The notes under the pieces: model-generated
Told to the model about the DNA's origin: nothing
Databases searched by the model: none
Seen by the model: the letters and a program-made list of their open reading frames with translations, nothing else
Made by a program: the position numbers and the translations under genes
In this document: in pieces, positions 13,346 to 31,289 of the stretch
How the letters are laid out: each line of letters starts with the position of its first letter
Numbering within the stretch: the stretch's first letter is position 1
Assembly: GCA_009927045.1 (NCBI GenBank)
Contig: RFNT01000210.1
Span: 1 to 32,170, forward strand
DNA: 32,170 bases
Reading direction: 5' to 3'
Origin: a bacterium
Lineage (GTDB): Bacteria > Bdellovibrionota > FAC87 > UBA2466

Positions 13346-13942
13346 TCAAGAGAGCTTGTGGGGATTCTTTTGAACCCATTCCAGGAAGGCCGCTACGGCT
13401 CGGGCTCGGTGGCTGACTTGGGATTTTTCAGCATCTGTGGCCTCCCCAAAAGACTTCCCCAAATCAAAGGAAAAAAAGAGCGGATCATAGCCAAACCCCT
13501 GAACGCCCGAAGGTGCTAATTGAATTTTTCCTTCGGTGACCCCCTCAAAAAACAGGGGTTCTCTAGTACCTCCAACCCAACACAACACCGTCCGAAATCG
13601 TGCTGTCCACTGGGCAGGTGGAAAGGGCCGAAGCAGGTCATAGAGAAAGGCAAATCGCTCAGACCACGAAAGGGTGACCCCTCCCCATCGGGCGCTCAAA
13701 ACCCCGGGAGCCCCTTGGAGCACATCAATTTCCAAGCCTGAGTCATCCGCAAGAACGGGTTTTTGAAGCCATTTAAAATAGCCTTGGGCTTTCAAAAGCG
13801 CATTTTCAGCGTAAGTGGCTCCCGTCTCGTCAATTTCAGGAGCGGCGGGGTCAAGCGGTAAGCATCGGAAGGAGGGTGCCAAGAGATCAGCAAATTCTTT
13901 CCATTTGCCGATATTTTTTGAGGCAATTCTCAGCTCGATCAC
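13346..13942 (-). CDS. rdgB: XTP/dITP pyrophosphatase RdgB
   Basis: This is the house-cleaning nucleotide pyrophosphatase of the Ham1 family. It hydrolyses dITP, dXTP and ITP to monophosphates and so keeps deaminated purines out of DNA. The 198 residues carry the full set of family motifs: the N-terminal [39 protein letters not shown] and the C-terminal SHRARA. The start codon overlaps the rph stop as ATGA (13939-13942), so the two are translationally coupled. The rph-rdgB pairing is common in bacteria. Confidence 0.96.
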
Positions 13943-14655
13943 TTCATTAAAACCTGTTTTTGTAACCGGAAAAGTTCTTGAATTCCTTGCTCGGCAAGCG
14001 CCAATAAACTTTCAAGATGATTTCTATCGAAGGGCTCTCCTTCGGCAGTCCCCTGCACTTCCACGAACTTGCCTTCGGAAGTCATCACCACATTCATATC
14101 CACTTCGGCATCTTTATCTTCGATGTAATCCAAATCCAAAACAGGAGTTCCCTTCACTACGCCAACAGAAACAGCAGCTACTGCTCGCTTTGAAACTTGG
14201 CTGAGCGACGGAATTTTTTGAGAGAACTTTTGTAAGGCTAACATCACCGCCACGTAACTCCCTGTGATTGATGCGGTTCGAGTGCCCCCATCGGCATCGA
14301 TGACATCACAATCGACGAGAATTGAACGTTCTCCTAATGCACTCAAGTCGATGGCGGCTCGAAGGGATCTACCTATCAGGCGTTGAATCTCCATGGTGCG
14401 GCCGCCAATTTTATTCCGCTCGCGCTGGATGCGTTGTCCAGAACTGGCTGGGAGCATCGAGTACTCGGCTGTCAGCCACCCTTTGCCCTGGCCCTTCAAC
14501 CAATTGGGGATTGTTTCTTCAATCATGGCAGAACAAACCACTCGCGTACCTCCCATTTCAATCAAACAGGATCCCGGAGGATGAGAGAGATAATGGGGAG
14601 TGATTTTTAAAGGACGCAGTTGCATGGGAGTGCGTCCACTGTGCCGTGATGCCAT
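13939..14655 (-). CDS. rph: Ribonuclease PH
   Basis: RNase PH is a phosphorolytic 3'-5' exoribonuclease that trims tRNA 3' ends and degrades structured RNA. The protein has 238 residues, full length. Recognisable blocks are [64 protein letters not shown] and the C-terminal [16 protein letters not shown] lies 8 nt before the ATG, inside the end of the amidase gene 4 nt away. The tRNA-Phe gene 45 nt beyond rdgB lacks an encoded CCA, so its 3' end needs processing and CCA addition. Confidence 0.96.
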
Positions 14656-14659
14656 AAAG

Positions 14660-15667
14660 TTATCCTAGCTTTCTTGTTCTGAGACCAAATTCAATAATGC
14701 CGGAGCTTATAGCACTGGCGAGACGTTTTAGGTAGGCTTCTTTCGTGAGAAGAAAAGATTCCTGAGGGTGGGTTACGTACCCCACTTCCACTAATATCGC
14801 TGGCATGTTCGTTCCATGAAGTACCGTGAAGGGTCCTTGTCGCACCCCTCGACCATTCGAGAGAACACGCTTTGAAATCGAAGTGAACATGTCTTCAGCA
14901 AACTGAGCACTTTCGTTTGTATGAAAGGTCGTTCTGACATCCGAAAGAATAGATAACACATCTGATTTTTCTGAGGGCAACTGGCCTTCACTTTCTTTGA
15001 GTGCCAGGCGCTCAGTTTCAGGATCGGAAGCTTCAGGACTTAAAAAATAAACTTCAAACCCGCGCGCTTTCGGCACCGGCGAGGAATTCAAGTGAATGCT
15101 GACAAACATGTCAGCACCCCAATTGTTTGCCATTCGAACACGCTCTTTAAGAGGAATAAACGTATCGTTTTCCCGAGTGAGTTGCACTTCCAGGGGATAT
15201 CCCTGTTTTTTAGCAATGCTCTCCACTTCACGTTTGATCTTTTTTGCCAGGAGCAAGCTCACTTGTTTTTCACGGATGCCATGGCGTCCGGCAGCTCCAT
15301 CATCTTTGCCTCCGTGCCCCGGATCCAACATCACCTTTAAACGATATTGGGTGCTCTGAGAAGCTGTCGGGACCGTTTTGATTTTGCTATCAGAAGGCGC
15401 TGGTTGGTCTGGACGCACGGAAATCATATTGACGGGGTTCATCAGCTGATTCTGTACGGGGTCGGTATGGTGCGGTGTTCGATCGGTTGAGGTTTCGAAG
15501 GGCGAGGGAATCTCTTTTGCTACACCGCGCTCACTCATGACGCTCACCAAAATAAATAAAGCAAGGAATGGAATGGAGAGCCATTTTAAGGGCGTGTTAG
15601 AATGGAACTTCCATCTGAGTTGATTCTTAATTTTTCCCTGGAATTTTTGATGAGAACAAAAAGCCAT
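14660..15667 (-). CDS. N-acetylmuramoyl-L-alanine amidase (Amidase_3)
   Basis: This zinc-dependent amidase cleaves the amide bond between MurNAc and the stem peptide. From the ATG at 15667 it has 335 residues. A basic N-terminus and one hydrophobic segment (about 28-45, [12 protein letters not shown]) act as signal or anchor. A Pro/Ser/Thr-rich linker is followed by the Amidase_3 domain (about 108-330) with the zinc motifs DPGHGG, the Glu of REND, SIHLNS and the catalytic Glu block LVEVGYVTH. The start region overlaps the divergent spoIID-like gene by 18 bp, and no later start keeps the hydrophobic segment. It is the first gene of an amidase-rph-rdgB operon. Confidence 0.92.
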
Positions 15668-16807
15668 CACCACTACCTTTTCGTGCTTGTTTTTTGTCTG
15701 GGATTTGTTGCGATTAACTGTGAGGGTGTCTCAACTGTTAGTGATCATAGCACAGCAGTACGAGTACTTCTAGACAAGGCGATCCCAAAAGGAAAGGTTC
15801 GGTCATTGCTCTACGCTACTTATTATCGCACTCAGCCAGAGCGAGGTTGGCTGACGGGTGAACGGGAACTTGAAATTGCCAGCGCTCAACAAGCACCTCA
15901 TGAAATCAGTGTGAATCAGAAATCGTTTTCGGATCCTTTTGTTTTCATTCGCGCAGGGCAAAGCCCTTCCGACAAGTTGAGCTTTCAAGGACGAGTTTTT
16001 CGTGGAGCTCTCAAGTGGGTAAAAAAGAAACTGGGGTTTTCTGTCATTAATTATTTAACGCTCGAAGATTATTTGCTTGGCACGTTAGGAAGCGAAATGA
16101 GTGCGTCCTGGGAAATAGAGGCATTAAAAGCCCAGGCAGTGGCCTCTAGAACATACGCACACTACATGATCCAGCACCCACGAAATGAGGAGTATGACTT
16201 AGAGAAAACCACACAAGATCAAGTCTACGGAGGAGTGGAAACTGAGGACCCACGAATTCAAGAAGCGGTTCGAAGCACGCGGGATCAAATTTTGGTCTTT
16301 AATGCTCGCCCCATTAAAGCTTTCTTTCATTCTAGATGCGGGGGCAGCACAGAGACTCCAGCATTTGTTTGGAATCACCGGCAGGGATTTCCCCAGAGAA
16401 AAGTTCAGTGCCCTTATTGCCAACAAAATCCATTTCCATGGGAAACTTTCGTCAAAGCCGAGGAACTCTTGCGATGGACAGGGTTAGACACCCGAACTGG
16501 ATTGAAGATTGAACCGGGACACACTAGCACTTCGGGCCGCCTCGCGAGTTTGAATTTTGTTGTTGGAACCCAGCGGGCCACAATCGATACCGATTCGCTT
16601 CGCAGCCATTTGGGCTATACCCGTTTAAAAAGCGCAAAGTTTGCGTGGAAACACCAGGGAGATTCGATCACTTTTCAAGGCGTTGGAAACGGGCACGGAG
16701 TGGGCATGTGCCAATGGGGCGCTCGATTCCTCGCACAACAAGGAAAGAACTACCGTCAAATCCTGGCCCACTATTATCCTGGTGCCACTCTACAAGTTTC
16801 CCACTAG
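15650..16807 (+). CDS. SpoIID/LytB-domain protein
   Basis: SpoIID-type proteins bind or cleave peptidoglycan glycan strands whose stem peptides have been removed. The product has 385 residues from the ATG at 15650, chosen because it gives a clean signal peptide (YLFVLVFCLGFVAINC; the Asn before Cys is poor for a lipobox). The domain spans about 125-380 with VINYLTLEDYLLGTLGSEMS (the Glu is the expected catalytic residue), AQAVASRTYA, FFHSRCGGSTE and GHGVGMCQWGARFLAQQG. A CPYC pair near residue 260 may form a disulfide. Its neighbour, the divergent amidase, makes the stripped glycan substrate that SpoIID enzymes prefer, so the pairing makes functional sense. Confidence 0.92.
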   Translation: MRTKSHHHYLFVLVFCLGFVAINCEGVSTVSDHSTAVRVLLDKAIPKGKVRSLLYATYYRTQPERGWLTGERELEIASAQQAPHEISVNQKSFSDPFVFIRAGQSPSDKLSFQGRVFRGALKWVKKKLGFSVINYLTLEDYLLGTLGSEMSASWEIEALKAQAVASRTYAHYMIQHPRNEEYDLEKTTQDQVYGGVETEDPRIQEAVRSTRDQILVFNARPIKAFFHSRCGGSTETPAFVWNHRQGFPQRKVQCPYCQQNPFPWETFVKAEELLRWTGLDTRTGLKIEPGHTSTSGRLASLNFVVGTQRATIDTDSLRSHLGYTRLKSAKFAWKHQGDSITFQGVGNGHGVGMCQWGARFLAQQGKNYRQILAHYYPGATLQVSH

Positions 16808-18634: not shown

Positions 18635-19229
18635 TTCCATTCCTCCCCTGAAATCTGAGTTTTTCCAAAGAGATACTGTGACAGTTGCGCGCGAACTCTT
18701 GGGCAAAGGACTCTTTCTTCGAAATAGAAAACACTCCTTTTTATGTGAAATTGTAGAAGTGGAGGCCTATTTACCGCAAAACGATGAGGCCAGTCACAGC
18801 TTCAAAGGACTCACGCCCCGCAACCAATCGATGTTTGAAGTGGGTGGTACTGCTTATGTGTACCTCATTTATGGCATGTACTGGTGTGTGAACGTGGTTA
18901 CGGAGCCCCAAGGAACAGGAGCCGCTGTGCTCCTTCGAGCTGCTATTCCGCTTCTGGGACTCAAAGAAATGCAAAAAAATCGGGGGCTTAAGCCAGGCTC
19001 CTCAGAGCGTGCCCTTTTGAGTGGACCAGGTAAACTCACCCAGGCTTTAAATATTAATCGGTCTTTTGACGGGGTGAAATTTAATCAAGCGGACTTCAAA
19101 ATCATCGACTTAGGAAAAGTTTTGGGCGAGTCTGACATCAGTTCATCACCTCGTATCGGCATCAGTAAGGCACAAGACAGACCGTTGCGGTTTTTTGTTA
19201 AAAATAGCCCATGGCTTTCTAAGCAATGA
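18597..19229 (+). CDS. 3-methyladenine DNA glycosylase (AAG/MPG family)
   Basis: This base-excision repair enzyme removes alkylated and deaminated purines. Its 210 residues match the AAG fold: ARELLGKGLF, EIVEVEAYL with the water-activating Glu, DEASHSFKG, TPRN, YVYLIYGMYWCVNVVT and LLSGPGKLTQAL. The ATG at 18597 lies inside the end of yqeY. Later ATG or GTG codons would cut into the conserved domain, so a 38-bp overlap seems genuine, although a non-ATG start after the overlap is possible. The gene is an insertion between yqeY and dnaG in an otherwise conserved cluster and is probably co-transcribed. Its stop overlaps the dnaG ribosome binding site. Confidence 0.93.
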   Translation: MKLPEKSSLPDPNSIPPLKSEFFQRDTVTVARELLGKGLFLRNRKHSFLCEIVEVEAYLPQNDEASHSFKGLTPRNQSMFEVGGTAYVYLIYGMYWCVNVVTEPQGTGAAVLLRAAIPLLGLKEMQKNRGLKPGSSERALLSGPGKLTQALNINRSFDGVKFNQADFKIIDLGKVLGESDISSSPRIGISKAQDRPLRFFVKNSPWLSKQ

Positions 19230-19234
19230 AAGGA
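19229..19234 (+). promoter_or_regulatory. Ribosome binding site that fixes the dnaG TTG start
   Basis: AAAGGA (19229-19234) lies 8 nt before the TTG at 19243. It supports this start over the upstream in-frame start at 19195, which lies inside aag. The first base is also the last base of the aag stop codon. Confidence 0.65.
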
Positions 19235-19242
19235 AACGTATT

Positions 19243-19707
19243 TTGTTTTCTGAGTCGACACTCAATGAAATCAGAAGCCGATTCGATATTGTCGATTTGA
19301 TAGGCCGATATGTCACTTTGAAGAAAAGTGGCCAAGGGTATCAAGGCCTGTGCCCGTTCCACAAAGAAAAGACTCCTTCCTTTCATGTGCACCCCGCTAA
19401 ACAAGTGTATCGCTGTTTCGGCTCTTGTGGAAAAGGGGGGAATATTTTTACTTTCCTCATGGAGTATGAAGGCATTTCGTTTCCTGATGCCGTCCGAAGA
19501 CTCGCGAAAGATGTGGGCGTTCGTATTGAGGAAGACAAAGCGTTTAGTCGTCCCCAACAAAAGCCTGTGGCTCCCCAACAGGAACGCGCACTGAAAGCTT
19601 TGGAGTTTGCCGGAAAGTACTTTCATTTTTGCTCACCAAGATCCTCAGTATCGATTTGCTTGGAAGTACTTAGAAAACCGAGGGCTTTCAAAAAAATCGA
19701 TCGATAA
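19243..19707 (+). CDS. dnaG: DNA primase, 5' part (frameshifted)
   Basis: DnaG makes the RNA primers for DNA replication. This frame, starting at a TTG, encodes the N-terminal zinc-binding domain (about 1-100): the opening TLNEIRSRFDIVDLIGRYV, then CPFHKEKTPSFHVHP and CFGSCGKGGN, which give the CHC2 zinc ligands, then FPDAVRRLAKDVGVRIEED. Homology continues to KYFHF near base 19627 and then breaks. The remaining codons to the stop at 19707 are out of frame. At the break there is a run of five T (19626-19630). Removing one T joins the frames and keeps the same spacing as E. coli DnaG between the FY-like motif and the YLE.RGLS block. Confidence 0.92.
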   Translation: MFSESTLNEIRSRFDIVDLIGRYVTLKKSGQGYQGLCPFHKEKTPSFHVHPAKQVYRCFGSCGKGGNIFTFLMEYEGISFPDAVRRLAKDVGVRIEEDKAFSRPQQKPVAPQQERALKALEFAGKYFHFCSPRSSVSICLEVLRKPRAFKKIDR

Positions 19708-21064
19708 GTTTCAGTTGGGGGTTTCCCCTCGGGGCTGGAACACACTCATGACTTTGATGATTTCCAAAGGCTTCACTTGGGACGACTTGCTGACCGCAGG
19801 TTTGGTTGTGGCAAAAGAAGATAGCAAACACCAAGGTTATGACCGCTTTCGCGAGCGACTGATGTTTCCCATTCGGGATAAAAATGGATCTGTCGTCGGA
19901 TTTGGGGCAAGAGCCCTCAAAGAAGGGGATGAGCCCAAGTATCTCAATTCTCCTGAAACCCCGTTGTTCAATAAAAGTAAAATTCTCTATGGTCTTTTTG
20001 ATAATCAACGAGAAATCCGATTGCGTTCTGAAGCTCTTGTTGTAGAGGGCTATATGGATGTGGTGGGTCTCTCCGAGGCTGGAGTTAGCAATGCAGTGGC
20101 GCCCATGGGAACTGCTCTTACCCCGGAACACTGCCGAGAGATCAAGTCGTTTACACAAAAAGTGATCACGGTGTTTGATCCTGACACTGCAGGAGTCAAT
20201 GCTTGGCATCGAAGCATCCCCTTGTTTTTAGAAGCTGGATTGTTCGCTAAGGATGTTTCTCTCACCGGCGGAATGGACCCAGATGAATTTGTTAAAAAGG
20301 AAGGTGCTGAAAAATTTTACGGCTTGTGCGATCAAGCGCCGTTGCAGGTTACCAAATACCTCAAGGAGATTGCGGAAAAGGGCGCTTTGGGGGAACGGGA
20401 GCGATCAAAAGCCTTACAAGAACTGACGCCTGTTTTGCTTGCAAGTCGCCGACTTCCGGACAAGGGGGCTTTCCTGTGGGACGATGTCTCCAGAGTGTTA
20501 AACATTTCTTTTGATGGATTACAAAAACTGATTCAGGATTCACCCCTGCGACATCAAGCTTCGGCACCCGTTCGTACCGAACGCCAGCCCGCTCGTCGTC
20601 CCATGCCCACTCTGGACCGATCTAAAAAATTTCCTCTGGATTGGGAATTTTTTCGAGCGGCTCTTCATGAGCCCCAAGCTTTTTTTCAATTTCCTAAAGA
20701 ACACTGGGTGGGCTTTTTGAAAGACCCCGAACTGGAGCAATTACTCGTTCGGGCTTGGGAAACGCAATCTCCGGAAAAGCTCACCGCTTTGCTGGAAGAA
20801 CTGGTAGTCGCACAAAACCATCCGGATATTATTGGGGCACTTACGGAAGCTCTTTTGCCCCCTACGGAACCCGGTGGAACCACCCCTTTTGGCTTCCAAG
20901 AACTTGCAAAACGAATGGCAGAACGTCGTCAAAAGGCCGAAATCCGGGGACTGGCTAACCAGGTCCGTTTGAGCCAACGTTTGGGCGAAAGCGAAGAGCA
21001 GCTTAAGTTATTGGAACAAATAAGGATTTTGAAGAGGTCCCCTAGCGAGCCCCCCCTGAAATAA
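19631..21064 (+). CDS. dnaG: DNA primase, 3' part (frameshifted)
   Basis: This is the continuation of DnaG from base 19631: AHQDPQYRFAWKYLENRGLS, KFQLGVSPRGWNTL, FPIRDKNGSVVGFGARAL, the TOPRIM Glu block EALVVEGYMDVVGLSEAG, APMGTALTPEH and the Asp pair FDPDTAG (usually FDGDxAG; the Gly is Pro here). Residues beyond about 430 of the joined protein form the less conserved helicase-binding tail, with a Pro/Arg-rich linker. The joined protein would be 606 residues. Taken alone, the nearest ATG is at 19607, but it lies inside homologous sequence and has no ribosome binding site. A second, real initiation there is unlikely. Confidence 0.92.
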   Translation, partial: AHQDPQYRFAWKYLENRGLSKKSIDKFQLGVSPRGWNTLMTLMISKGFTWDDLLTAGLVVAKEDSKHQGYDRFRERLMFPIRDKNGSVVGFGARALKEGDEPKYLNSPETPLFNKSKILYGLFDNQREIRLRSEALVVEGYMDVVGLSEAGVSNAVAPMGTALTPEHCREIKSFTQKVITVFDPDTAGVNAWHRSIPLFLEAGLFAKDVSLTGGMDPDEFVKKEGAEKFYGLCDQAPLQVTKYLKEIAEKGALGERERSKALQELTPVLLASRRLPDKGAFLWDDVSRVLNISFDGLQKLIQDSPLRHQASAPVRTERQPARRPMPTLDRSKKFPLDWEFFRAALHEPQAFFQFPKEHWVGFLKDPELEQLLVRAWETQSPEKLTALLEELVVAQNHPDIIGALTEALLPPTEPGGTTPFGFQELAKRMAERRQKAEIRGLANQVRLSQRLGESEEQLKLLEQIRILKRSPSEPPLK

Positions 21065-23110: not shown

Positions 23111-23707
23111 TCACATAGAAAGCGATTCGGCTGAGGACGCGATGATAGTACACATCATCTGATGGAGCGCTGGAGTCGTCAGACCCCCAGTTCTTTTTAA
23201 ATTTAAAAACACACTGATCTCATCAGCAGAGAGAGCTCTGCCCAGAAATTTCTGCGAATAAAAATTTCCGGCCGTATTAACTGCCACATTTTCGGAAGGC
23301 GTGGAGGTTGCTGAAGACGTTGCGGTAATAGTCGGCAACCCTGGACTCGATTTGATGTAATCACACACTTTGGACGCTAGAAAAAAAGCAGCATTCATAG
23401 AAGTGGAAGTAACTTCTTCTACCGTCCCAGTTTTGGGAAATTGGGCCTTATGCCTTTCAGCCTCAGCTTCAATATCAGCGATCTGAACTGAATCCGTAAT
23501 ACCGGCCATTGCAATCAGAGAGCCGGTAATTTGACGGAAGTTCAACGGAGTGGGTGAATAGCCCGTGGCTGGCCGAACTGTAGGGTCATCGCCGCCACCG
23601 CCACCGAGGTTGCTGGTCCCATTGGCAAGCACCGAAATACTTTTTTTTGCACAGCCGACAGAAAGGGCCATGGCTAAGAACATCCCAAAAACGCTGGTTA
23701 GTTTCAT
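23111..23707 (-). CDS. Small lipoprotein of the haem/Tat locus
   Basis: A 198-residue lipoprotein with signal and lipobox LSVGC (Cys19). After the anchor comes a glycine-rich linker (five consecutive Gly near 33-37). A probably helical domain follows with two Cys (VCDY near 116 and MMCT near 187) and a late LSADEISVFL segment. It has no CxxCH motif and no recognised family. The ATG at 23707 overlaps the TGA of the upstream one-haem gene (ATGA), so the two products are probably made in equal amounts and may work together. A longer reading frame from 23725 would spoil the lipoprotein signal. Confidence 0.75.
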   Translation of the reverse strand: MKLTSVFGMFLAMALSVGCAKKSISVLANGTSNLGGGGGDDPTVRPATGYSPTPLNFRQITGSLIAMAGITDSVQIADIEAEAERHKAQFPKTGTVEEVTSTSMNAAFFLASKVCDYIKSSPGLPTITATSSATSTPSENVAVNTAGNFYSQKFLGRALSADEISVFLNLKRTGGLTTPALHQMMCTIIASSAESLSM

Positions 23708-24876
23708 GAGGGTTCCCCCAAACACTCGGGCTGTATTGCCACTTCAATAAACAGTTTCTTCAGATTGTGATTATCCACTACAAATCGATCGGCTAAGCGA
23801 TCTCTCAGAACCGGTGGAATGTGATTCGCTTTTTTCTTACAAACCAATTCCCAAACTTGATCAACTGCGCACCGGCTAAAAGCACCAGCATGGGCAATCA
23901 ACCGACCGAAATCTTTGGCTCCGCTCCCAGTTACTCCAATGCTGGCATCCCATTGAAAGTACGTTTGGTTGCTTCCACCCGTTGCAAAGTTCATCCAATT
24001 GGAATCGGCAACCACACTCCCTAGAGGTTGTGGTTCTCCAGCCATCACGGCAGGGACCCGATTGATCTTAGCCCTCACAACTCCCGGCGAGTAAACCGGT
24101 CGGTTAGTAGCTGCATCAAAATCATGGAAGGCAAAGGCTTTGCGGAGCGGGTCTAATACTTGGTGACACGTACGACACTCACTCATGAACTTAGGCGCAT
24201 CGCCCCCAGGGGCCCTAGACACATCTTTGGTGATTAAACTCTCGGCGACGGCACCGGAAAGGCGCATTTGAGAAATATCTCGGCATAAAAAGTTTCTGAA
24301 TGCATATTGAACAATTCTTCGATTTGTCCCATTGATAGCATGCTCAGACAAAAACTGCTGCGAGGTCAGAGCTCCCGCAGCGTCTGGAAAACTCGGCCGC
24401 TGCGGCCGGCTAATCGTCAAATTAGTATTCGTTAATCGTCCGGAAGGGAGGGTACTGACTGTGAAGTCGCCCTCTACCATCTCTGTGTAGGGTTGATCGG
24501 CAATCGTGTTGGCAATGCCCATCGCAATAAAATCATTCATTGGCGTGTCCGGACTTTCGCTTCTCACCGACTTGGGCGCAAAAAACTGAAAAAGATTCAC
24601 GTTGATAAAATCCTCATTGGTGAGCTCTACTCCGCCGGGGGTTGCTGCAGGCACAATGACAGCTCTCTTAGCAGCTTCATATAAGCGGTTGGCCTCTAGA
24701 TGCCCGGCCATGAGTGAGATCCGAGCATCTTGAAGCGGCAGTTTCACACCCGCAATGTGCGAGTACAGCCGTTGGGCCAATCTTCTTGAGGCAACCGTTT
24801 CTGAAAACGCTTCGCCAGTCAAAAGTATCCCCACCAGCAAAATGAAGTGCGGATTTAACGGAAGCAACAGTTTCAT
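23704..24876 (-). CDS. Secreted one-haem protein, DUF1588-like
   Basis: This is a 390-residue exported protein with a Sec signal peptide (hydrophobic from about residue 10, cleavage near FSETVA). It contains one c-type haem motif, CRTCH, at residues 234-238, set in FMSECRTCHQVLDPLRKAF and followed by HDFDA. This resembles the DUF1588-type 'CA.CH...DP.GfAfE.fDa' block of planctomycete and myxobacterial cytochrome-like proteins. A second, CAVDQVWELVCK, near 345 may be a disulfide pair. The ATG at 24876 is chosen because GAGGG lies 6 nt upstream. It is the first gene of the leftward unit, divergent from the Tat-substrate gene. Function unknown; probably electron transfer or oxidation in the periplasm. 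Confidence 0.75.
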   Translation of the reverse strand: MKLLLPLNPHFILLVGILLTGEAFSETVASRRLAQRLYSHIAGVKLPLQDARISLMAGHLEANRLYEAAKRAVIVPAATPGGVELTNEDFINVNLFQFFAPKSVRSESPDTPMNDFIAMGIANTIADQPYTEMVEGDFTVSTLPSGRLTNTNLTISRPQRPSFPDAAGALTSQQFLSEHAINGTNRRIVQYAFRNFLCRDISQMRLSGAVAESLITKDVSRAPGGDAPKFMSECRTCHQVLDPLRKAFAFHDFDAATNRPVYSPGVVRAKINRVPAVMAGEPQPLGSVVADSNWMNFATGGSNQTYFQWDASIGVTGSGAKDFGRLIAHAGAFSRCAVDQVWELVCKKKANHIPPVLRDRLADRFVVDNHNLKKLFIEVAIQPECLGEPS

Positions 24877-25192
24877 GATCAACCCTCGAATAGACTGGCA
24901 ACACTCTACTGACCTGCTAAAAAAGTGCCAACGTTCTGTCCGGTTGTAGCTTTTACAAACATCTGCCTAGATTTTAGAGAGATCCAATTGTGCTCTTGGT
25001 TCTTTTCGCTACCAATTCAAGCCTCACAAACTGTACTGAGAAACAACACGCGCTTCTCTAAATAAATGATTTTCTGCGATTTTTTTTTTTTTTGAGGAAG
25101 TGTCTATGCTTCAACCACTGCTTTCTCTGTTATTTCCAGTGTTTATTGAATTGTGAACGTGGCCTGTCGAAAAGTTATGCATCGGCCTAATT

Positions 25193-25210
25193 GTTTTTCA
25201 ACTGAAAAAC
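25193..25210. repeat. Inverted repeat next to the sigma-54-type promoter
   Basis: GTTTTTC, spacer AACT, GAAAAAC: seven perfect pairs, ending 4 nt before the -24 element. It could be a protein-binding site or a small hairpin. It is too close to the promoter to be a typical enhancer site for a sigma-54 activator. Confidence 0.35.
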
Positions 25211-25213
25211 TTT

Positions 25214-25229
25214 TGGCACTAGCCTCGCA
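25214..25229 (+). promoter_or_regulatory. Sigma-54-type -24/-12 promoter
   Basis: TGGCAC, 5-nt spacer, TCGCA. This matches the consensus TGGCAC-N5-TTGCA at all but one base. The GG and GC dinucleotides have the required 10 nt between them. A start about 12 nt after the GC would fall near 25240, leaving a 19-nt leader that includes the ribosome binding site of the gene at 25259. Confidence 0.45.
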
Positions 25230-25258
25230 TCACTAGAACGTTATTCGTAGGGGAATCC

Positions 25259-26791
25259 ATGATCATCAAATCGCAGAAGAGTAAGCGGGATCTGACCCGG
25301 GAACACGAGCACCACCAGAAACAAATGCCGGGAGACTACTACACGCGTAGAGAATTTCTCGAGCGTGGTCTTGTTGGAATTTCGAGCAGCTTGGTGGTTC
25401 CTTCCATTTTTTCCATTTTTACACAATCGGAAATAGCAGCTGGAATTACTAATGATATTAAAAAAGTATTTATTGTGGACCTGCCAGGCGGGGCCGGAAT
25501 AGGAGCAGAGATTGCACTTTTGATGGCAAATGGAACCATGCCATCTGGACCAACCTATTTTAGAACCGGCGCACCTGATAACCGGTCGGTGAATACTCAG
25601 TTTGGAGCACCCATTTGGAGTGTTGGGCTTCTGAATCAAGCGTTAACAAGCACTTCAGCGTTGGCGAACACTCCTAACACAGCCAGCATTTTCAATGCGG
25701 TTGCGCCCACGCAGATTACAGTGGCATCGACTGAAGTTCGACAGCGCCTGAAAATCATCGTCCTTCAGCACCCCAACAGCATGGATGATTTGAGTTCTAA
25801 CCCGACGCTAGGAACCCAATCCATTGCCAATGCCGCCATAGTGGCGCAGATGCCTTATAAAGTGAAGGGTGGATTGCAGGGCCGGTCGCGCACCAACTTT
25901 GGAACGGGTGGCTTTGCTCAACCCGCTTTCACTTATGAGGGTTTGAATCCCGCAATTACTAATGAGTTGTCCCAACTTGAAAATTTGTTCAAGCTCAACC
26001 AAGGCGCGCTCGCTTCGCTCAACGCTTCTCAACTGCAACAAGTGGCCAATGCTTCTTTTGCTTTTTCAGAAGCTGTAAAGAGGACGTTGGGGGCTGTAAA
26101 TCCGCTCGCGGGTAAGGCCTCAAACGGTTCCAAGAATCTCCAGGAACTTGCCAGCAATACGCCCGATTTAGACCTCACCCGAGCTACTCACCCCGAACGA
26201 ACTTTCTATAATGATATTTTTCGATTCTCAGGGCTCAATAATTCGACGCAGGAAAATAGAAATCTAGCCATAGCGGCGAATACCAAAGCAGTTTTGGATG
26301 GACTTACCCCGCTTGCGGTTTTTTCGGAAAACGACCAATTGTATGACTATCACATTCCCAATCCTGTTGATGGCTGGCGCACGGTGCAACACCCCATGAT
26401 GATTGATCAGACCATGAAACTCCTCAATGCCTTAGCGGCCAAAAATCAATCTGGCATTGTAGCTTGGCACACCAATGGGGCAATTACATTTGGACCTGGA
26501 CAAACAGCTGACGGCGATGGGGGTTCCTATCATGCTGGAGTTTTGTTTGTATTGAGTAAGCCAGGAGATCCCGTGCCTGAATCTTTTAGAGTGGGTGGCG
26601 CTAATAACGAGGGCGGAGGCGACAGCGATATCAATACGAATATTCTGGCCCGCAACCCCAGTTTTGAAGGACATGCGCTTTTGGCGAATCTGCTCTCACT
26701 GAGTGGCGTTCCCAAATCTGATTTTAGCCGGTTTATGCCTGGAAATATCTCGTTAGCGGAGTTTCAAGCACTGAGTAAGTTTAGAACCTAG
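25259..26791 (+). CDS. Probable Tat-exported protein, DUF1501-like
   Basis: A 510-residue protein with a long N-terminal region that ends in TRREFLERGLVGISSSLVVP (residues 29-48), a twin-arginine signal. It resembles the RR-F-L motif of DUF1501 proteins, and the next block KKVFIVDLPGGAG is similar to their 'k.vI...L.GG.' segment. The rest has no clear metal or haem motif. His-containing blocks occur at VQHPMMID and VAWHTNG. The resemblance to DUF1501 is suggestive only. The gene starts the rightward unit, directly behind the sigma-54-type promoter, and the unit also encodes TatC. In planctomycetes and others, DUF1501 genes pair with haem-motif genes, as they do here. Function unknown. Confidence 0.7.
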   Translation: MIIKSQKSKRDLTREHEHHQKQMPGDYYTRREFLERGLVGISSSLVVPSIFSIFTQSEIAAGITNDIKKVFIVDLPGGAGIGAEIALLMANGTMPSGPTYFRTGAPDNRSVNTQFGAPIWSVGLLNQALTSTSALANTPNTASIFNAVAPTQITVASTEVRQRLKIIVLQHPNSMDDLSSNPTLGTQSIANAAIVAQMPYKVKGGLQGRSRTNFGTGGFAQPAFTYEGLNPAITNELSQLENLFKLNQGALASLNASQLQQVANASFAFSEAVKRTLGAVNPLAGKASNGSKNLQELASNTPDLDLTRATHPERTFYNDIFRFSGLNNSTQENRNLAIAANTKAVLDGLTPLAVFSENDQLYDYHIPNPVDGWRTVQHPMMIDQTMKLLNALAAKNQSGIVAWHTNGAITFGPGQTADGDGGSYHAGVLFVLSKPGDPVPESFRVGGANNEGGGDSDINTNILARNPSFEGHALLANLLSLSGVPKSDFSRFMPGNISLAEFQALSKFRT

Positions 26792-26817
26792 TAAACACTT
26801 TGACGGGAGCAGTACGT

Positions 26818-27963
26818 TTGAATTTTCAGACTTTCATTCTCTTTTGTCTGAGTTTCCTTGTGCTGGTGGGTTGCCAGGGTAAGCTGCGCTTCAGTACAGA
26901 CGGCGGTCAAGTTCGTAGTCTCTTTAACCTAGAAATTCACCCTGGACTTCAGGAAAGCTGTGTTCGATGTCACGATCCCCTTTCCTCAGATCCGGGAGCA
27001 AAATTATTTCCGTTTGCACAGAGCAATGAAAACGCCGCTTACGAAGTTTTAACGGCTGATCCGGGTCGCCTCCAACGCATGATAGAAAGAATTGAAGGCC
27101 GAGAACATCCGGAGCCCTCTTACTTACAGGGGAGAATCAAAGATTCTCCAGAAGGTTTTGTGGCCCAGTTAAAGGATTTGCAAGATAGACTGTGCAAACG
27201 CGATAACCGCTTTTGTCCCAAGCCCGCAATCTACAAAGACACCACTCTAGTTCAATTGGAAGATGTCCCGCTCAATCAGTTCAAATACGTTCGTTTTGAT
27301 TTGGGGCGTTTGGGGTTTCCCGGAGCTCAAGCAGAAATCGGTTACACCCGAAACACCCTTTCCGGTTTACAATTTGGTCGGTTACGAATCCATTCGCCGG
27401 GAGGTGCGCTAGAAGTTGGCGGAGTCACTTTGGCTCTTGTCACCGAGGATCGAGGTGAAACCATTACGCTCCTTGCCCCCTTGCCCTCCATCACCGTTCC
27501 TCAAGCAGATCAGCCCACACCTTCCGTTACTGCTCCTATGGCAGGAATCAATGATTTAATGCTGAGTGGAGGGTCGGCTAACGAATCTCCTTCCAGTATC
27601 CCCGCAAGTGAACTACCGCTCATCAAGCTCAAATTTGGAGCTATTAACTATAGGCCTCAAACACCCCAGCAGAGGTTCCTGTTAACAGTAAAACCTATCC
27701 TGTCTAGAAGCTGTTTGGGATGTCATGCCGGCGGTAATCCAGGTGCTTCCGCAGCTATGTCCCTGGGGACGAGTGGAACAATCAGTAGTGACACAGTCCT
27801 CTATACCACTGTTGGACAACGAATCATTCAAGGAGATGTCGCCAACTCTAAAATCATTCAAAAAGCTGGAAATGGATCAGGGGGCCACTTGCAGCTCCTC
27901 ACTGGAACTGATTTGGCAGCTGTCAGAGACTGGATTCTCGCTGAGGGTTCCCAGAGTCCTTAA
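26818..27963 (+). CDS. Two-haem c-type cytochrome lipoprotein
   Basis: A 381-residue lipoprotein starting at a TTG with GGGAG 8 nt upstream. This start gives a clean LVLVGC lipobox with Cys19. An upstream TTG at 26800 lacks a ribosome binding site. Two c-type haem motifs are visible: CVRCH at 48-52, close to the membrane, and CLGCH at 299-303 near the C-terminus. The middle (about 120-270) is a beta-rich, Ser/Pro-containing domain. The architecture resembles planctomycete-type cytochrome c lipoproteins. Electron transfer at the outer face of a membrane is expected. It lies 26 nt after the Tat substrate and 22 nt before tatC, and is part of the same transcription unit. Confidence 0.85.
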   Translation: MNFQTFILFCLSFLVLVGCQGKLRFSTDGGQVRSLFNLEIHPGLQESCVRCHDPLSSDPGAKLFPFAQSNENAAYEVLTADPGRLQRMIERIEGREHPEPSYLQGRIKDSPEGFVAQLKDLQDRLCKRDNRFCPKPAIYKDTTLVQLEDVPLNQFKYVRFDLGRLGFPGAQAEIGYTRNTLSGLQFGRLRIHSPGGALEVGGVTLALVTEDRGETITLLAPLPSITVPQADQPTPSVTAPMAGINDLMLSGGSANESPSSIPASELPLIKLKFGAINYRPQTPQQRFLLTVKPILSRSCLGCHAGGNPGASAAMSLGTSGTISSDTVLYTTVGQRIIQGDVANSKIIQKAGNGSGGHLQLLTGTDLAAVRDWILAEGSQSP

Positions 27964-27985
27964 GGCGAGTTAATATAGGACTTCA

Positions 27986-28753
27986 ATGGAAACTTATCAG
28001 GAACAATCTGAGCCTGTGCGCTTGCAAAGCTTGGTGGAACATTTAGGAGATTTGCGAGCTGTCCTTATTCGGTCAGCAGTTGCTGTCGTGATCGCCTTTT
28101 TTGCCTCTTTTCATTACGCGGATCGAATCATTGCATTTTTAAAGGCCCCGCTCCTTTCTGCACTGCCTGAGCACAGCCGAAAACTCTATTACATGGGACT
28201 CACAGAACAGCTTTATTGTTACATGAAAGTTTCTCTGTTCGCAGCTCTAGCATTTAGTTTTCCTTTTTTGCTCACTCAGCTGTGGATTTTCATTGCGCCC
28301 GCATTAAAAAAAAACGAGAAGCGTTTAGTGGTCCCTTTCATCGTGGCTTCGATTTCTGCTTTTATTCTGGGATTTTTCTGTGCTTATCGGTGGGGGCTTC
28401 CGTATGTTTTCCAATTTCTCTTGTCCTTCAGTCCAACCCCAGATGAAGTGCCCCTCATCCGGCTTTCCGATTATTTAACGCTGGTTCTCCAGCTCCTTTT
28501 AGGTACGGCCTTGCTTTTTGAGATTCCGGTTTTACTTTCTCTTTTAGGCAAGCTGGGAATTATCAATGCAGCACTGCTCAAGCACTATCGACCCCAAGCC
28601 TATGTAGGGTTGGCTATTCTTGCCGCCGTATTGACTCCAACTCCTGATGCCTTTTCCATGATTCTGGCCCTCATCCCGCTCTTCTTCCTGTATGAACTGA
28701 GTGTGTTTTGTGTGCAGTGGGTTGCATCAGAAAATGGAGGCGTAACAAAATGA
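27986..28753 (+). CDS. tatC: Sec-independent translocase protein TatC
   Basis: TatC is the polytopic receptor that recognises twin-arginine signal peptides and works with TatA/TatB. The 255-residue protein has six predicted membrane segments. Conserved blocks are EHLGDLRAVL at the N-terminus, FPFLLTQLWIFIAPALKKNE before the second loop (Glu111 present) and LTPTPDAFS near the end. The N-terminal family motif HLxELR reads HLGDLR, so the conserved Glu is Asp22 here. No tatA or tatB is in the window. AGGA lies about 6 nt upstream of the ATG. Its place in a unit with a twin-arginine substrate and haem proteins suggests local co-regulation. It could be the only TatC or a second copy. Confidence 0.95.
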   Translation: METYQEQSEPVRLQSLVEHLGDLRAVLIRSAVAVVIAFFASFHYADRIIAFLKAPLLSALPEHSRKLYYMGLTEQLYCYMKVSLFAALAFSFPFLLTQLWIFIAPALKKNEKRLVVPFIVASISAFILGFFCAYRWGLPYVFQFLLSFSPTPDEVPLIRLSDYLTLVLQLLLGTALLFEIPVLLSLLGKLGIINAALLKHYRPQAYVGLAILAAVLTPTPDAFSMILALIPLFFLYELSVFCVQWVASENGGVTK

Positions 28754-29232
28754 GGAAAGTTTTATTTTTTATATTTCTGTCTGCCCTTGTCTGGGGAAAT
28801 GAAGTGGAAATTAAAGTCACTTTGAATCCAGCCGGCTCCTTTACTGCAAAAAGTAGTGAAGTGCTAGTGGAGGGCAGTCTTCAAGTGAGCAATTCACAAT
28901 TGAAGGCAAGTCGGATTGTTTTACCGATCAGCTCTCTAGAAACGGGACTTTCTTTACGAGATAGTCATATGAAAACCAATTACTTTGAAGTCGCTCAGCA
29001 TCCCAAAGCAGTCTTGCTGGAGGCAGTAGGGGCTGGAGGCAGGTTCACCGGCAAGTTAGAGGTCCACGGCGTTCAGAAAGAAATCCGTGGGAAATATCGA
29101 ATCAAACAAGGTGTTTTTGAAACGAAATTTAGCTGCCGCCTCAGCGATTTTAAGATAAAAGAAGCTAATTACATGGGAGTAGGAGTCGAGGACGAAGTGA
29201 CGGTCTCTACTAAAATTAGGATCCCCGAATGA
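28750..29232 (+). CDS. YceI family periplasmic protein
   Basis: A lipocalin-like YceI protein, 160 residues with a short signal peptide (FFIFLSALVWG). YceI folds bind isoprenoid-type lipids, and several are involved in base or stress responses or quinone-like ligands. Blocks include LVEGSLQVSNSQLKASRIVL, the SRDxHM-like LRDSHMKTNYFEV, and the closing SDFKIKEANYMGVGVEDEV. The ATG at 28750 overlaps the tatC TGA (ATGA), with GGAGG 10 nt upstream, so it is translationally coupled. A ligand that shuttles electrons would fit the neighbours, but this is an inference. Confidence 0.93.
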   Translation: MRKVLFFIFLSALVWGNEVEIKVTLNPAGSFTAKSSEVLVEGSLQVSNSQLKASRIVLPISSLETGLSLRDSHMKTNYFEVAQHPKAVLLEAVGAGGRFTGKLEVHGVQKEIRGKYRIKQGVFETKFSCRLSDFKIKEANYMGVGVEDEVTVSTKIRIPE

Positions 29233-29549
29233 AGTTAAGTCCTTTTTATTTCACAGTGTTTTTCTTTTCCACTCTGGCGGGTTTAGTTCTTCTTTCTAAT
29301 TGTGGGGGGGTCGATTCGGTTTACTATGATGGGCGAACGTGTGTTCCGGGTATTGGCTCCGCGAGCACTGGAGCGGAAATCTATCAAGCAGCTTGTGCCA
29401 GCTGTCATGGTCAGCTTCAGAATTGGAACAAAGGAAAAGTTTCCGCCTCTACCATACAGATGGCTATCTCATCCACTATTCCCTCCATGCGATATCTCAA
29501 CTGCCTAACGACAGACCAGATTAACAGCATTGCTACCGCTCTTCCTTAG
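29229..29549 (+). CDS. Small mono-haem cytochrome c, probably membrane-anchored
   Basis: A 106-residue protein with a hydrophobic N-terminus ending LLSNC. The Asn before Cys25 makes a poor lipobox, so it may be a cleaved signal or an uncleaved anchor. The haem motif is CASCH at 56-60, and Met87 in IPSM is the likely axial ligand. The size matches a single class I cytochrome c domain. The ATG overlaps the yceI stop (ATGA) and the TAG overlaps the stop of the convergent barrel gene by 4 nt. It is the last gene of the rightward unit. Confidence 0.9.
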   Translation: MKLSPFYFTVFFFSTLAGLVLLSNCGGVDSVYYDGRTCVPGIGSASTGAEIYQAACASCHGQLQNWNKGKVSASTIQMAISSTIPSMRYLNCLTTDQINSIATALP

Positions 29550-30154
29550 AAGTGAATATTGAAATCCATGGCGGAATAAAAAGCCCGCGTCGTGTTAAGA
29601 AACCCCAGTTTTGGAGTAAACACAAAGCGGTTCCGACGCAGCCTCAAGGCTAAAAAAGCGCCATAACTCAAAGTGGATGTTTTATTGAGTGTATAGCCCG
29701 AGGCCAGGCCCTTATTCAGAAAAAAAGTTCCTATCAGCGGAATGCCGAGCCCAATGCCGACTCCTTCTTGCAGGCGAATGAGCCACGAGAAATCTAGGCC
29801 AACTCCCACTGAAGATAGGTTTTGCCCCGAAAAGTCTACAGCTGCCACTTGATCTGGCCGAAAGCCGATATCTGAATTTCCATAAATGACTTGGCCACGA
29901 ATCACAAAAGATGCCCAATCTGTTGGTAAGACATAACCCAATCCCAAACCGAGTCCCAAAGTAGTCGAGTTCAAATCATAGTTGGGCCCTGCTGAGCTCG
30001 TGATTCGGCAGGCCTCCTGCCAGTTGCCCAAGCTAATAGAGTAAAAGCTTCTTTGAGGCGCTTTCGGACGTGATGGTCTTCGCTGAACTGCGGAGGTTGC
30101 TGGAAGAGCCAAAACACATCCCAAAATGATAATGACTGCTTTATATCCAAACAT
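29546..30154 (-). CDS. Outer-membrane beta-barrel protein
   Basis: A 202-residue exported protein: signal peptide (residues 5-22, cleavage near ATSA), a short basic linker, then alternating strands with Gly/aromatic endings (LGLGLGLGYVLP, FVIRGQVIYG, SSVGVGLDFSW, LSYGAFLALRLR, FVFTPKLGFL) and a terminal Phe (MDFNIHF). This is typical of a small outer-membrane barrel. The start overlaps the end of the haem-barrel gene by 14 nt, so the two are probably coupled. No ligand or enzyme motif is visible. Confidence 0.75.
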   Translation of the reverse strand: MFGYKAVIIILGCVLALPATSAVQRRPSRPKAPQRSFYSISLGNWQEACRITSSAGPNYDLNSTTLGLGLGLGYVLPTDWASFVIRGQVIYGNSDIGFRPDQVAAVDFSGQNLSSVGVGLDFSWLIRLQEGVGIGLGIPLIGTFFLNKGLASGYTLNKTSTLSYGAFLALRLRRNRFVFTPKLGFLNTTRAFYSAMDFNIHF

Positions 30155-31289
30155 GGGTCTGCACCTGAATCAAATAAGAGGACGGGGCTACGCTGGGTAG
30201 GCCCATCGATTGAGTTGCTAAAAAATCCATCCGAAGCTCTACTTTTGAAAATGGCAAGTATTCCAAAGAAGGCCCCGCTCTAAACAGTCGCGTGCTTCCG
30301 TCTTTTAAATTTTCAACATAGTGTTCAAAAGTAGTTAAAGCGAAGAGACCTCGAACGAGTTGGTGTCGACTTTGAACCAGCGAAACACTTCCTAAGTGAT
30401 ACGAATCAATTCCGGAAAGAGTCTGCCGAAACAGGCCCAATTGGGCAACTAATGAAGACGCCTTACCCATTTGAAATCTGCCATGGATGGCTCCCATTTG
30501 ACGAGCTCTGAACTCGCTCTGAGACACCAAGACAGAAAAACCACCCCGACTATTTTCACCCAGTTCAAACTCAGAGAATAAAGAAAGGCCTTTTTGCCGA
30601 ACCGCAGCTTCCTGCTGAAACTTGCCTAGGAACGCCTGAATACCTAATTCGCCGGTTTGCCAATCTCTGTGAAAAAGAATGCCATGGGTTTGGTCATTTA
30701 TATTGAGATACTGAGTCGAGCGGATATAGGCATTGTGATCCGGTATGCGTAAACCGAAGGCAACGTCCATCAAACCGACGTAGAATCCAAGACCTTTCTC
30801 TGGAGTAATTCCTACGTAATGTTCTCGGGAAATAAGATTTCCTAATCTGTCTTTTTCGGCAGGACTCAAACTCTCAGGAAGGGGCACATAGCCCCCTGAG
30901 GCCACAGCCACCAACTTTTTACCGAAGCTCAAAGCGACTGCGCCATCTGCTTGCATGTGGATCCACCGCGACCTGGCTTGGGCTTGCAACCCCTGGCGCA
31001 AGTAAAGTCCTCTGTAATTGAGCTGCAATTGAAGCCATTCGGGAAGCGGTCCGAATACAAATGCGGAATGGTTCGCTAAAGCTTCTGGCTCAGCACCAAA
31101 GAGATTGCCAGAAATTTCAGTAGCTTGGACGGCTCTGCCATAGCTGTTGATGGGCCCGTTTCCCAAAGGATTGTAGTGGCAAGTTCGACAGGAAGCGTAT
31201 CCATAGGAGATATAGGCCGGATAAGCTTGAACCTGCCGGCTCAATTTCCCCATCCCACAGAGTAATAAGCAGATCGCTAATCGTTTCAA
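30141..31289 (-). CDS. Haem-motif outer-membrane barrel (porin-cytochrome-like)
   Basis: A 382-residue exported protein. A signal peptide (residues 1-22) is followed at once by a haem motif CRTCH at residues 34-38 in YASCRTCHYNPLG, then NSYGR, a block shared by single-haem proteins that precede barrels. From about 75 on, alternating strands fill the protein (LQLQLNYRGLYL, VALSFGKKLVAVASGGYV, LGFYVGLMDVAFGL, GGFSVLVSQS, LVAQLGLF, VELRMDFLATQ) up to an aromatic end VWI. A haem at the periplasmic mouth of a barrel is the picture. The start codon is a TTG with no clear ribosome binding site, so the exact start is uncertain. It is convergent to the TatC unit. Confidence 0.75.
   Translation of the reverse strand: MKRLAICLLLCGMGKLSRQVQAYPAYISYGYASCRTCHYNPLGNGPINSYGRAVQATEISGNLFGAEPEALANHSAFVFGPLPEWLQLQLNYRGLYLRQGLQAQARSRWIHMQADGAVALSFGKKLVAVASGGYVPLPESLSPAEKDRLGNLISREHYVGITPEKGLGFYVGLMDVAFGLRIPDHNAYIRSTQYLNINDQTHGILFHRDWQTGELGIQAFLGKFQQEAAVRQKGLSLFSEFELGENSRGGFSVLVSQSEFRARQMGAIHGRFQMGKASSLVAQLGLFRQTLSGIDSYHLGSVSLVQSRHQLVRGLFALTTFEHYVENLKDGSTRLFRAGPSLEYLPFSKVELRMDFLATQSMGLPSVAPSSYLIQVQTHVWI

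Follow-up and report, generated by a model that had tools for sequence, protein, structure and literature searches.

The window, a 32,170-nucleotide stretch of DNA from a member of the Bdellovibrionota, carries nine adjacent genes at positions 23111-31289, and all nine open reading frames of the original prediction were confirmed at their coordinates. On the reverse strand lie A2 (23111-23725), a lipoprotein without haem of about 198 amino acids (aa) when read from the likely ATG at 23707, with the lipobox SVGC/A, and A1 (23704-24882; 392 aa), a mono-haem periplasmic protein typed as PSCyt3 from a weak PSCyt3/DUF1588 match and by hhalign. An intergenic region of 376 nt with a run of 14 T (24883-25258) parts A1 from five forward-strand genes, namely those encoding A3 (25259-26791), a Tat-exported protein of 510 aa with the motif T29RREFL; A4 (26800-27963), an outer-membrane-type haem lipoprotein of 387 aa with two CxxCH motifs; TatC (27986-28753; PF00902, E 2e-59); a periplasmic lipocalin-like protein of the YceI family (28708-29232, likely ATG at 28750; PF04264, E 5e-17, 63 bits against a cut-off of 23.7); and a small mono-haem cytochrome c lipoprotein of 106 aa (29229-29549). 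Two reverse-strand genes complete the set: one for an outer-membrane barrel-like protein of 202 aa that ends in F (29546-30154), and one for the haem-barrel (30141-31289), a barrel-like outer-membrane protein of about 382 aa with one N-terminal haem site. The predicted Tat signal, TatC, YceI, lipoproteins and two barrels were thereby all recovered from the sequence, and seven of the nine proteins (all but TatC and YceI) had no Pfam or NCBIfam model above cut-off.

The overlaps of 4-14 nt that had been described between genes hold as well: given likely internal ATG starts, 4 nt are common to A1 and A2, TatC and YceI, YceI and the small cytochrome, and the small cytochrome and the barrel, and 14 nt to the two barrel genes. 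Promoter and terminator scans returned sites no commoner than in shuffles. Lipoboxes were found in three proteins, A2, A4 and the small cytochrome, the A2 lipobox Cys being C25 in the GTG/TTG-started reading and C19 from the likely ATG. In E. coli, the residue at position +2 governs lipoprotein sorting, and the residues found there, A, Q and G, predict the outer membrane.

Five CxxCH motifs occur in four of the proteins, as originally reported: C236RTCH in A1, C54VRCH and C305LGCH in A4, C56ASCH in the small cytochrome and C34RTCH in the haem-barrel. Shuffles of the same proteins contained a mean of 0.0098 such motifs (maximum 1), and none was present in the other upstream open reading frames of at least 100 aa in the window. 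The haem ligands are kept in relatives. C236, C239 and H240 of A1 are invariant across 20 sequences; the lipid Cys25, the CxxCH and Met87 of the small cytochrome are all invariant, Met87 being the probable axial haem ligand; and the haem-barrel has the N-terminal motif GYxSCxTCHxNPxGNGxxxxYGR, with Y31, C34, C37, H38, G43, G45, Y50 and R52 invariant. The first haem motif of A4 is likewise invariant, and the second varies among relatives.

When DUF1588 and planctomycete cytochrome families were searched, as had been proposed, A1 matched the PSCyt3 profile. Taken alone, the A1 of the window gives a weak PSCyt3/DUF1588 match below the Pfam cut-off; aligned by hhalign to PSCyt3 proteins, the A1 profile reaches 98.2% (E 3e-14, 223 columns), against at most 7% for unrelated-family controls, and 11 of the 20 members of its family match PSD2/DUF1585. 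These comparisons show true homology between A1 and the PSCyt3 proteins of planctomycete type. Its neighbour A2 has an invariant lipid Cys in a family alignment of 16 sequences, and in one relative (G004:C33) a single open reading frame of 555 aa encodes A1 with A2 attached at its C-terminus.

The 510-aa protein A3 has a twin-arginine signal, lies beside A1 in 24 other loci, and belongs to a family specific to these loci. An alignment of 21 members shows conserved GG77-78, DD177..N181, D363-Y-H365, (D)G406-407 and D420; the A3 of the window has N406, where 19 of the 20 other members have D. Membership of DUF1501, for which an HMM check had been suggested, was not borne out. A3 had no Pfam match to DUF1501 or DUF1552 and the own-genome search was empty; a first positive of 94.7% rested on the Tat signal region and was rejected, the A3 profile without its signal peptide giving only 0.4-3.5% by hhalign, which is not significant. 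Outside the family, DUF1501 proteins head the weak matches of the A3 profile (E 0.0017 at best, then 0.023, 0.031 and 0.11). A bridge to DUF1501 via L125 and L126 was likewise discarded: both DUF1501 matches stem from these two, which a core A3 profile built without them misses and which were probably misplaced in the alignment. At best, A3 would be a twilight relative of DUF1501. Searches of solved structures with the A3 and haem-barrel profiles gave chance matches only, and single-sequence AlphaFold models were unusable (pLDDT 34 for A3 and 30 for the haem-barrel).

Eight of the nine families, TatC being left out, are found together repeatedly in Bdellovibrionota. Among the loci read, nine (G000, G034, G035, G041, G048, G057, G071, G074 and G081), drawn from five bacterial families within the phylum, contain the complete set of eight; one of the nine very probably belongs to Bdellovibrio bacteriovorus HD100. 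The canonical order is A1-A2-A3-A4 (module A), with YceI, the small cytochrome, the barrel and the haem-barrel (module B) beside it. Homologues scattered in relatives, or haem motifs that are not conserved, would have spoken against a shared locus; we found both the neighbourhood and the haem ligands conserved. The predicted layout of two divergent units, however, is not ancestral, as A1-A2-A3-A4 are co-directional in 24 other loci: A1-A2 are inverted in the window and the divergent units are a local rearrangement, the 376-nt region between them having arisen through that inversion in this lineage.

A1 and the haem-barrel lie at most 12 kb apart in 15 of the 30 genomes that have both, against 0.39 expected and a maximum of 6 in 200,000 simulation runs, although genomes with a common layout are kin and the 30 are hence not independent tests. 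Haem-barrel homologues occur in 61 of 97 genomes, and across the phylum almost every genome that has YceI or the haem-barrel has the two side by side. The cluster is not a chance neighbourhood. Several genomes (G022, G029, G045, G062 and G090) have module A but lack module B, and the converse is seen in others, such as G001, so the two are partners rather than one obligate machine. A stricter reading takes module A, module B and, here, tatC as two or three independent conserved operons that simply often adjoin one another in the phylum. Of the genomes with both modules, about half indeed have them at separate places, and TatC adjoins in only four relatives, but co-location exceeds expectation by a factor of about 40 and persists in five families with differing internal arrangements, and small planctomycete-type cytochromes are found in both modules; we consider separate operons distinctly unlikely.

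The proposal that the locus has its own Tat receptor was partly upheld. The TatC of the window is the sole TatC found in the assembly and belongs to a clade of paralogues separate from the probable housekeeping TatC. It is nonetheless lineage-limited: TatC or tatAC stands beside cluster genes only in four near relatives (G000, G009, G014 and, beside module B, G001), and a search of related loci with TatC returned mostly housekeeping TatC loci. We found no TatA in the 95%-complete assembly, where TatC is present; in the sister species G001, tatA lies directly upstream of tatC-yceI. In the cluster of the window, TatC is an insertion.

Ubiquinone-8 is a ligand of YceI proteins, which have links to cytochromes; together with the gene for a cytochrome partner, YceI/BcnA makes up an established antioxidant pair of Gram-negative bacteria (PMC9113575). 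The cluster might accordingly defend the outer membrane against lipid peroxides, with YceI acting like BcnA, its bound quinol quenching lipid peroxyl radicals, c-type cytochromes replacing the cytochrome b561 LcoA as re-reductant, and the barrels as outer-membrane partners. The near-constant adjacency of YceI and the haem-barrel agrees with such a role; yet the window cluster has no cytochrome b561 gene, the BcnA-type system has no c-type haem on a barrel, and the PSCyt3/Tat pair, also found alone, would be left unexplained; we consider this defence unlikely. Another YceI precedent suggests that the cluster may feed electrons to secreted enzymes that oxidise polysaccharides or polymers, the role put forward for Cellvibrio Cbp2D/E: a single polypeptide, Cbp2D, contains a YceI UQ-8 domain, the c-type cytochrome X183 and DUF1587, and X183 hands electrons to an LPMO (PMC8981238), while PSCyt proteins of Verrucomicrobia carry carbohydrate-binding modules (PMC5615132). 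However, the clusters scanned contained no recognisable LPMO, glycoside hydrolase or carbohydrate-binding module, and the carriers of the cluster are predators living on other bacteria; we consider a role in polymer oxidation improbable.

Outer-membrane barrels with c-type cytochromes nearby also recall an extracellular electron transfer conduit of the porin-cytochrome type, and 4 of 15 A4 members weakly match an MtrC/MtrF-like domain (best 1.7e-4). Proteins of the window have at most 2 CxxCH each, and those of the relatives read at most 3; with a single haem in the barrel and one to three in each partner, the outer membrane cannot be bridged as it is by the haem chain of MtrAB, and a multihaem (MtrA-like) protein is absent from the cluster. 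We rejected an Mtr-type conduit as the primary reading for want of that partner, and regard any such conduit as very doubtful. One to three haems per protein instead suggest a periplasmic oxidoreductase with an outer-membrane gate rather than an electron wire across the membrane.

The explanation we favour, tentatively and at slightly less than even confidence, is that the locus is a rearranged copy of the conserved eight-gene cluster, working at the outer membrane as a periplasmic quinone-to-cytochrome relay that serves the A1/A3 pair. Conservation, gene order, conserved haem ligands, the A1-PSCyt3 homology and the one A1-A2 fusion are observed; the steps that follow are inferred. YceI would carry isoprenoid quinone between the inner membrane and the periplasm; the small cytochrome and A4, predicted at the periplasmic face of the outer membrane, would exchange electrons with YceI and connect to the A1/A2/A3 unit, of which A3, folded before Tat export, may be the enzyme-like or substrate-binding component. 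The haem-barrel would be an outer-membrane pore with its N-terminal haem at the periplasmic mouth, linking the relay to the entry of a substrate that is small or hydrophobic, and TatC an added convenience for A3 export in this lineage rather than a core part. Phylum-wide co-occurrence and invariant haem-binding residues support the shared envelope redox function originally put forward; nothing specific to its other option, metal or haem uptake, was found.

The eight-gene envelope set is so far undescribed. Literature on the HD100 locus tags bd2519-bd2528, an interpolated position, yielded only bd2524, a PilZ gene (PMC2797640), and no cluster phenotype, which suggests that the interpolation is off by some genes. 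A fuller version of the favoured relay, possible though somewhat unlikely, is a redox system of Bdellovibrionota in which the haem-barrel gates substrate entry and exchanges electrons, by way of the lipoprotein cytochromes and the quinone carrier YceI, with a Tat-exported enzyme; this enzyme would belong to a new family and have the PSCyt3 cytochrome as its partner. If true, this gated system would be the first place to solve the function of widespread PSCyt/Tat-partner pairs. The pair comes here with a constant complement of genes for the outer membrane, the periplasm and quinone carriage. The very probable presence of this set in HD100, a genetically tractable predator, would make an orphan family open to experiment, and the cluster may expose envelope redox chemistry of predatory bacteria.

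The locus indeed corresponds to no oxidase, reductase or Mtr-type set that is known, but the original judgement to that effect missed two precedents, the uncharacterised PSCyt3-type pair and Cellvibrio Cbp2D. A1 shares homology with the C-terminal half of the PSCyt3 proteins of Planctomycetes and Verrucomicrobia (PMC5615132) and, like them, adjoins the gene for a Tat-exported partner. Unlike those pairs, A1 is without the N-terminal domains of large PSCyt3 proteins, A3 is no recognisable DUF1501 or DUF1552, and the cluster adds the A2 lipoprotein, the A4 haem lipoprotein and links to YceI and the haem-barrel; the phylum has canonical PSCyt3-DUF1501 pairs as well (for example, G006:C31 and G001:C4). 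Cbp2D of Cellvibrio japonicus (CBM2-YceI/X158-FN3-X183-DUF1587; PMC8981238) likewise combines a YceI-type quinone-binding domain with a small c-type cytochrome and planctomycete-type domains; it is, however, one secreted protein with neither Tat protein nor barrel, whereas the cluster encodes eight separate envelope proteins and no carbohydrate-binding module. With BcnA-LcoA (YceI lipocalin and cytochrome b561; PMC9113575), the cluster has in common a YceI gene linked to a cytochrome, but periplasmic c-type cytochromes and outer-membrane barrels stand in place of an inner-membrane b561. MtrCAB and the porin-MHC conduits of Verrucomicrobia (PMC5615132) also encode an outer-membrane barrel with c-type cytochromes; unlike these, the cluster has, instead of a multihaem cytochrome, a single haem on the N-terminus of the barrel itself.

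All nine adjacent genes of the original prediction are present in the window, with five CxxCH motifs in four of the nine proteins, compared to a mean of 0.0098 in shuffled versions. The first four, which we term module A, encode a lipoprotein (A2, 23111-23725, -), a PSCyt3-like cytochrome (A1, 23704-24882, -), the 510-aa Tat protein (A3, 25259-26791, +), and a haem lipoprotein (A4, 26800-27963, +). These are followed by TatC (27986-28753, +) and by module B, comprising YceI (28708-29232, +), a small cytochrome (lipoprotein, 29229-29549, +), a barrel (29546-30154, -), and an outer-membrane barrel-like protein with an N-terminal haem site (haem-barrel, 30141-31289, -). Only TatC and YceI passed the cut-off in a Pfam/NCBIfam scan of the nine proteins. 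The window corresponds to contig C144 of a Bdellovibrionota draft genome of 2.39 Mb (95% complete) that falls in one genus with G002; G002 and a MAG labelled 'Bdellovibrio sp. ZAP7' have identical TatC proteins. Elsewhere in the window, dnaG (19195-21064, +) is broken, with its zinc-binding N-terminus (19195-19707) and primase core (19607-21064) in differing frames; the apparent frameshift near 19640 in this essential gene probably reflects misassembly.

Gene-neighbourhood comparison confirmed the observation and widened it to a phylum-wide cluster of eight conserved envelope proteins. Homologues of A1 and the haem-barrel were found in 36 and 61 of 97 relatives' genomes, respectively, while single-sequence searches recovered close homologues of A3 in nine genomes and of A4 in eight. 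Among 38 loci in which gene order was read with family profiles, A1-A2-A3-A4 were co-directional in 24, and all families except TatC were united in nine (the window, G034, G035, G041, G048, G057, G071, G074, and G081). In G034, which has the window order but lacks both TatC and the inversion, A1-A2-A3-A4 are followed by YceI and the small cytochrome, and these six genes converge on those for the barrel and haem-barrel. A1 lies within 12 kb of the haem-barrel in 15 of the 30 genomes having both, against 0.39 expected under random placement, which is an effect size rather than a clean probability because the genomes are related. A1 and A2 are fused into a single 555-aa protein in G004 (C33). At four loci, L134 (G047), L139 (G084), L129 (G042), and L138 (G090), the A2 or A4 position is filled by very large proteins (916-1801 aa) bearing between one and three CxxCH.

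One of the nine loci belongs to G074, probably B. bacteriovorus HD100, in which the positions of the tatA/tatE homologues (2.486 and 2.096 Mb) agree with the published tags bd2572 and bd2196 (PMC3539863). Its cluster occupies approximately 2.4312-2.4403 Mb, with haem-barrel and barrel on the + strand and YceI, a one-haem protein, A4, A3, A2, and A1 on the - strand; interpolation places it at roughly bd2519-bd2528, uncertain by several genes. Within the library covered, our literature search found no publication on these genes. The cluster is flanked by a trypsin-like protease and a BNR-repeat protein (15226-16026 and 13516-15174 of the locus read), with GTP cyclohydrolase I on the opposite side.

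The window lineage is rearranged. A1-A2 are inverted relative to A3-A4, resulting in a divergent 376-nt intergenic region; a 14-T run between A1 and A3 (25080-25094) is a possible slippage tract. The cluster had been proposed to carry its own Tat receptor; TatC is encoded between A4 and YceI and is not core to the cluster. The interpretation given in the original prediction is supported in part. In sister genome G001, tatA-tatC-YceI-small cytochrome converge on barrel and haem-barrel, with module A absent at that place, and in G009 and G014 tatA and tatC adjoin module A. In a TatC tree, the window protein clusters with the YceI-linked copy of G001, and the module-A-linked copy of G009 joins them one step deeper (support 97/95); the same family contains another TatC group, which resembles the housekeeping TatC. 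Searching the window genome returned no TatA/B gene and a single TatC, although two of each are encoded by sister species G001 and G002; contigs missing from the assembly are a probable cause.

Conserved haem sites occur in four of the eight cluster proteins. The two haem lipoproteins, A4 and the small cytochrome, are related to cytochrome domains of the cbb3-type/PSCyt1 kind, and the haem-barrel combines an invariant N-terminal motif (Y..C..CH....G.G....Y.R) with a barrel-type C-terminus. The window genome also has another haem-barrel-YceI pair (C117, 1262-3696), more divergent and accompanied by two small one-haem proteins; pairs of this second type occur in most family members. In G011 (C90, 5114-6580, -), the gene directly upstream of module A encodes a barrel-like protein of 488 aa that contains two CxxCH and appears to be a haem-barrel variant with two haems. 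Members of the YceI family bind isoprenoids such as ubiquinone-8 and are paired with cytochromes (PMC9113575), and in Cellvibrio Cbp2D a YceI quinone domain is joined to a DUF1587 domain and to a c-type cytochrome able to reduce LPMOs (PMC8981238). Here, YceI may carry quinone across the periplasm and swap electrons with lipoprotein cytochromes beneath the outer membrane, on which an A1/A2/A3 unit would draw, while the haem-barrel would let in or sense substrate. A trans-membrane electron wire is unlikely because the barrel has one haem; the main rival to this reading of the cluster as a quinone-cytochrome relay is lipid-peroxide defence.

Profile comparison showed A1 to be a homologue of planctomycete-type PSCyt3 proteins, matching their C-terminal half over 223 columns (hhalign 98.2%, E 3e-14; at most 7% in controls), and 11 of 20 A1 family members matched PSD2/DUF1585. 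A3 has a Tat signal, and across its family G77, G78, D177, N181, D363, H365, D406, G407, and D420 are invariant or near-invariant, with position 406 being N in the window copy and D in 19 of 20 other aligned members. A relationship of A3 to DUF1501 is no more than suggested: the best weak matches to the A3 profile were DUF1501 proteins (E 0.0017 downwards), but profile comparison with the signal peptide removed was not significant. True PSCyt3-DUF1501 pairs were found elsewhere in Bdellovibrionota, including G001. At L126 (G004, C485), L125 (G018), L137 (G086), and L146 (G027), module B is adjoined by different Tat proteins, of which some match DUF1501 or DUF1552, and at L125 and L126 a PSD2-type protein accompanies them; other PSCyt-type pairs seem to stand in for module A. 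The cluster is a variant of the already known, functionally orphan kind that joins PSCyt proteins with Tat partners.
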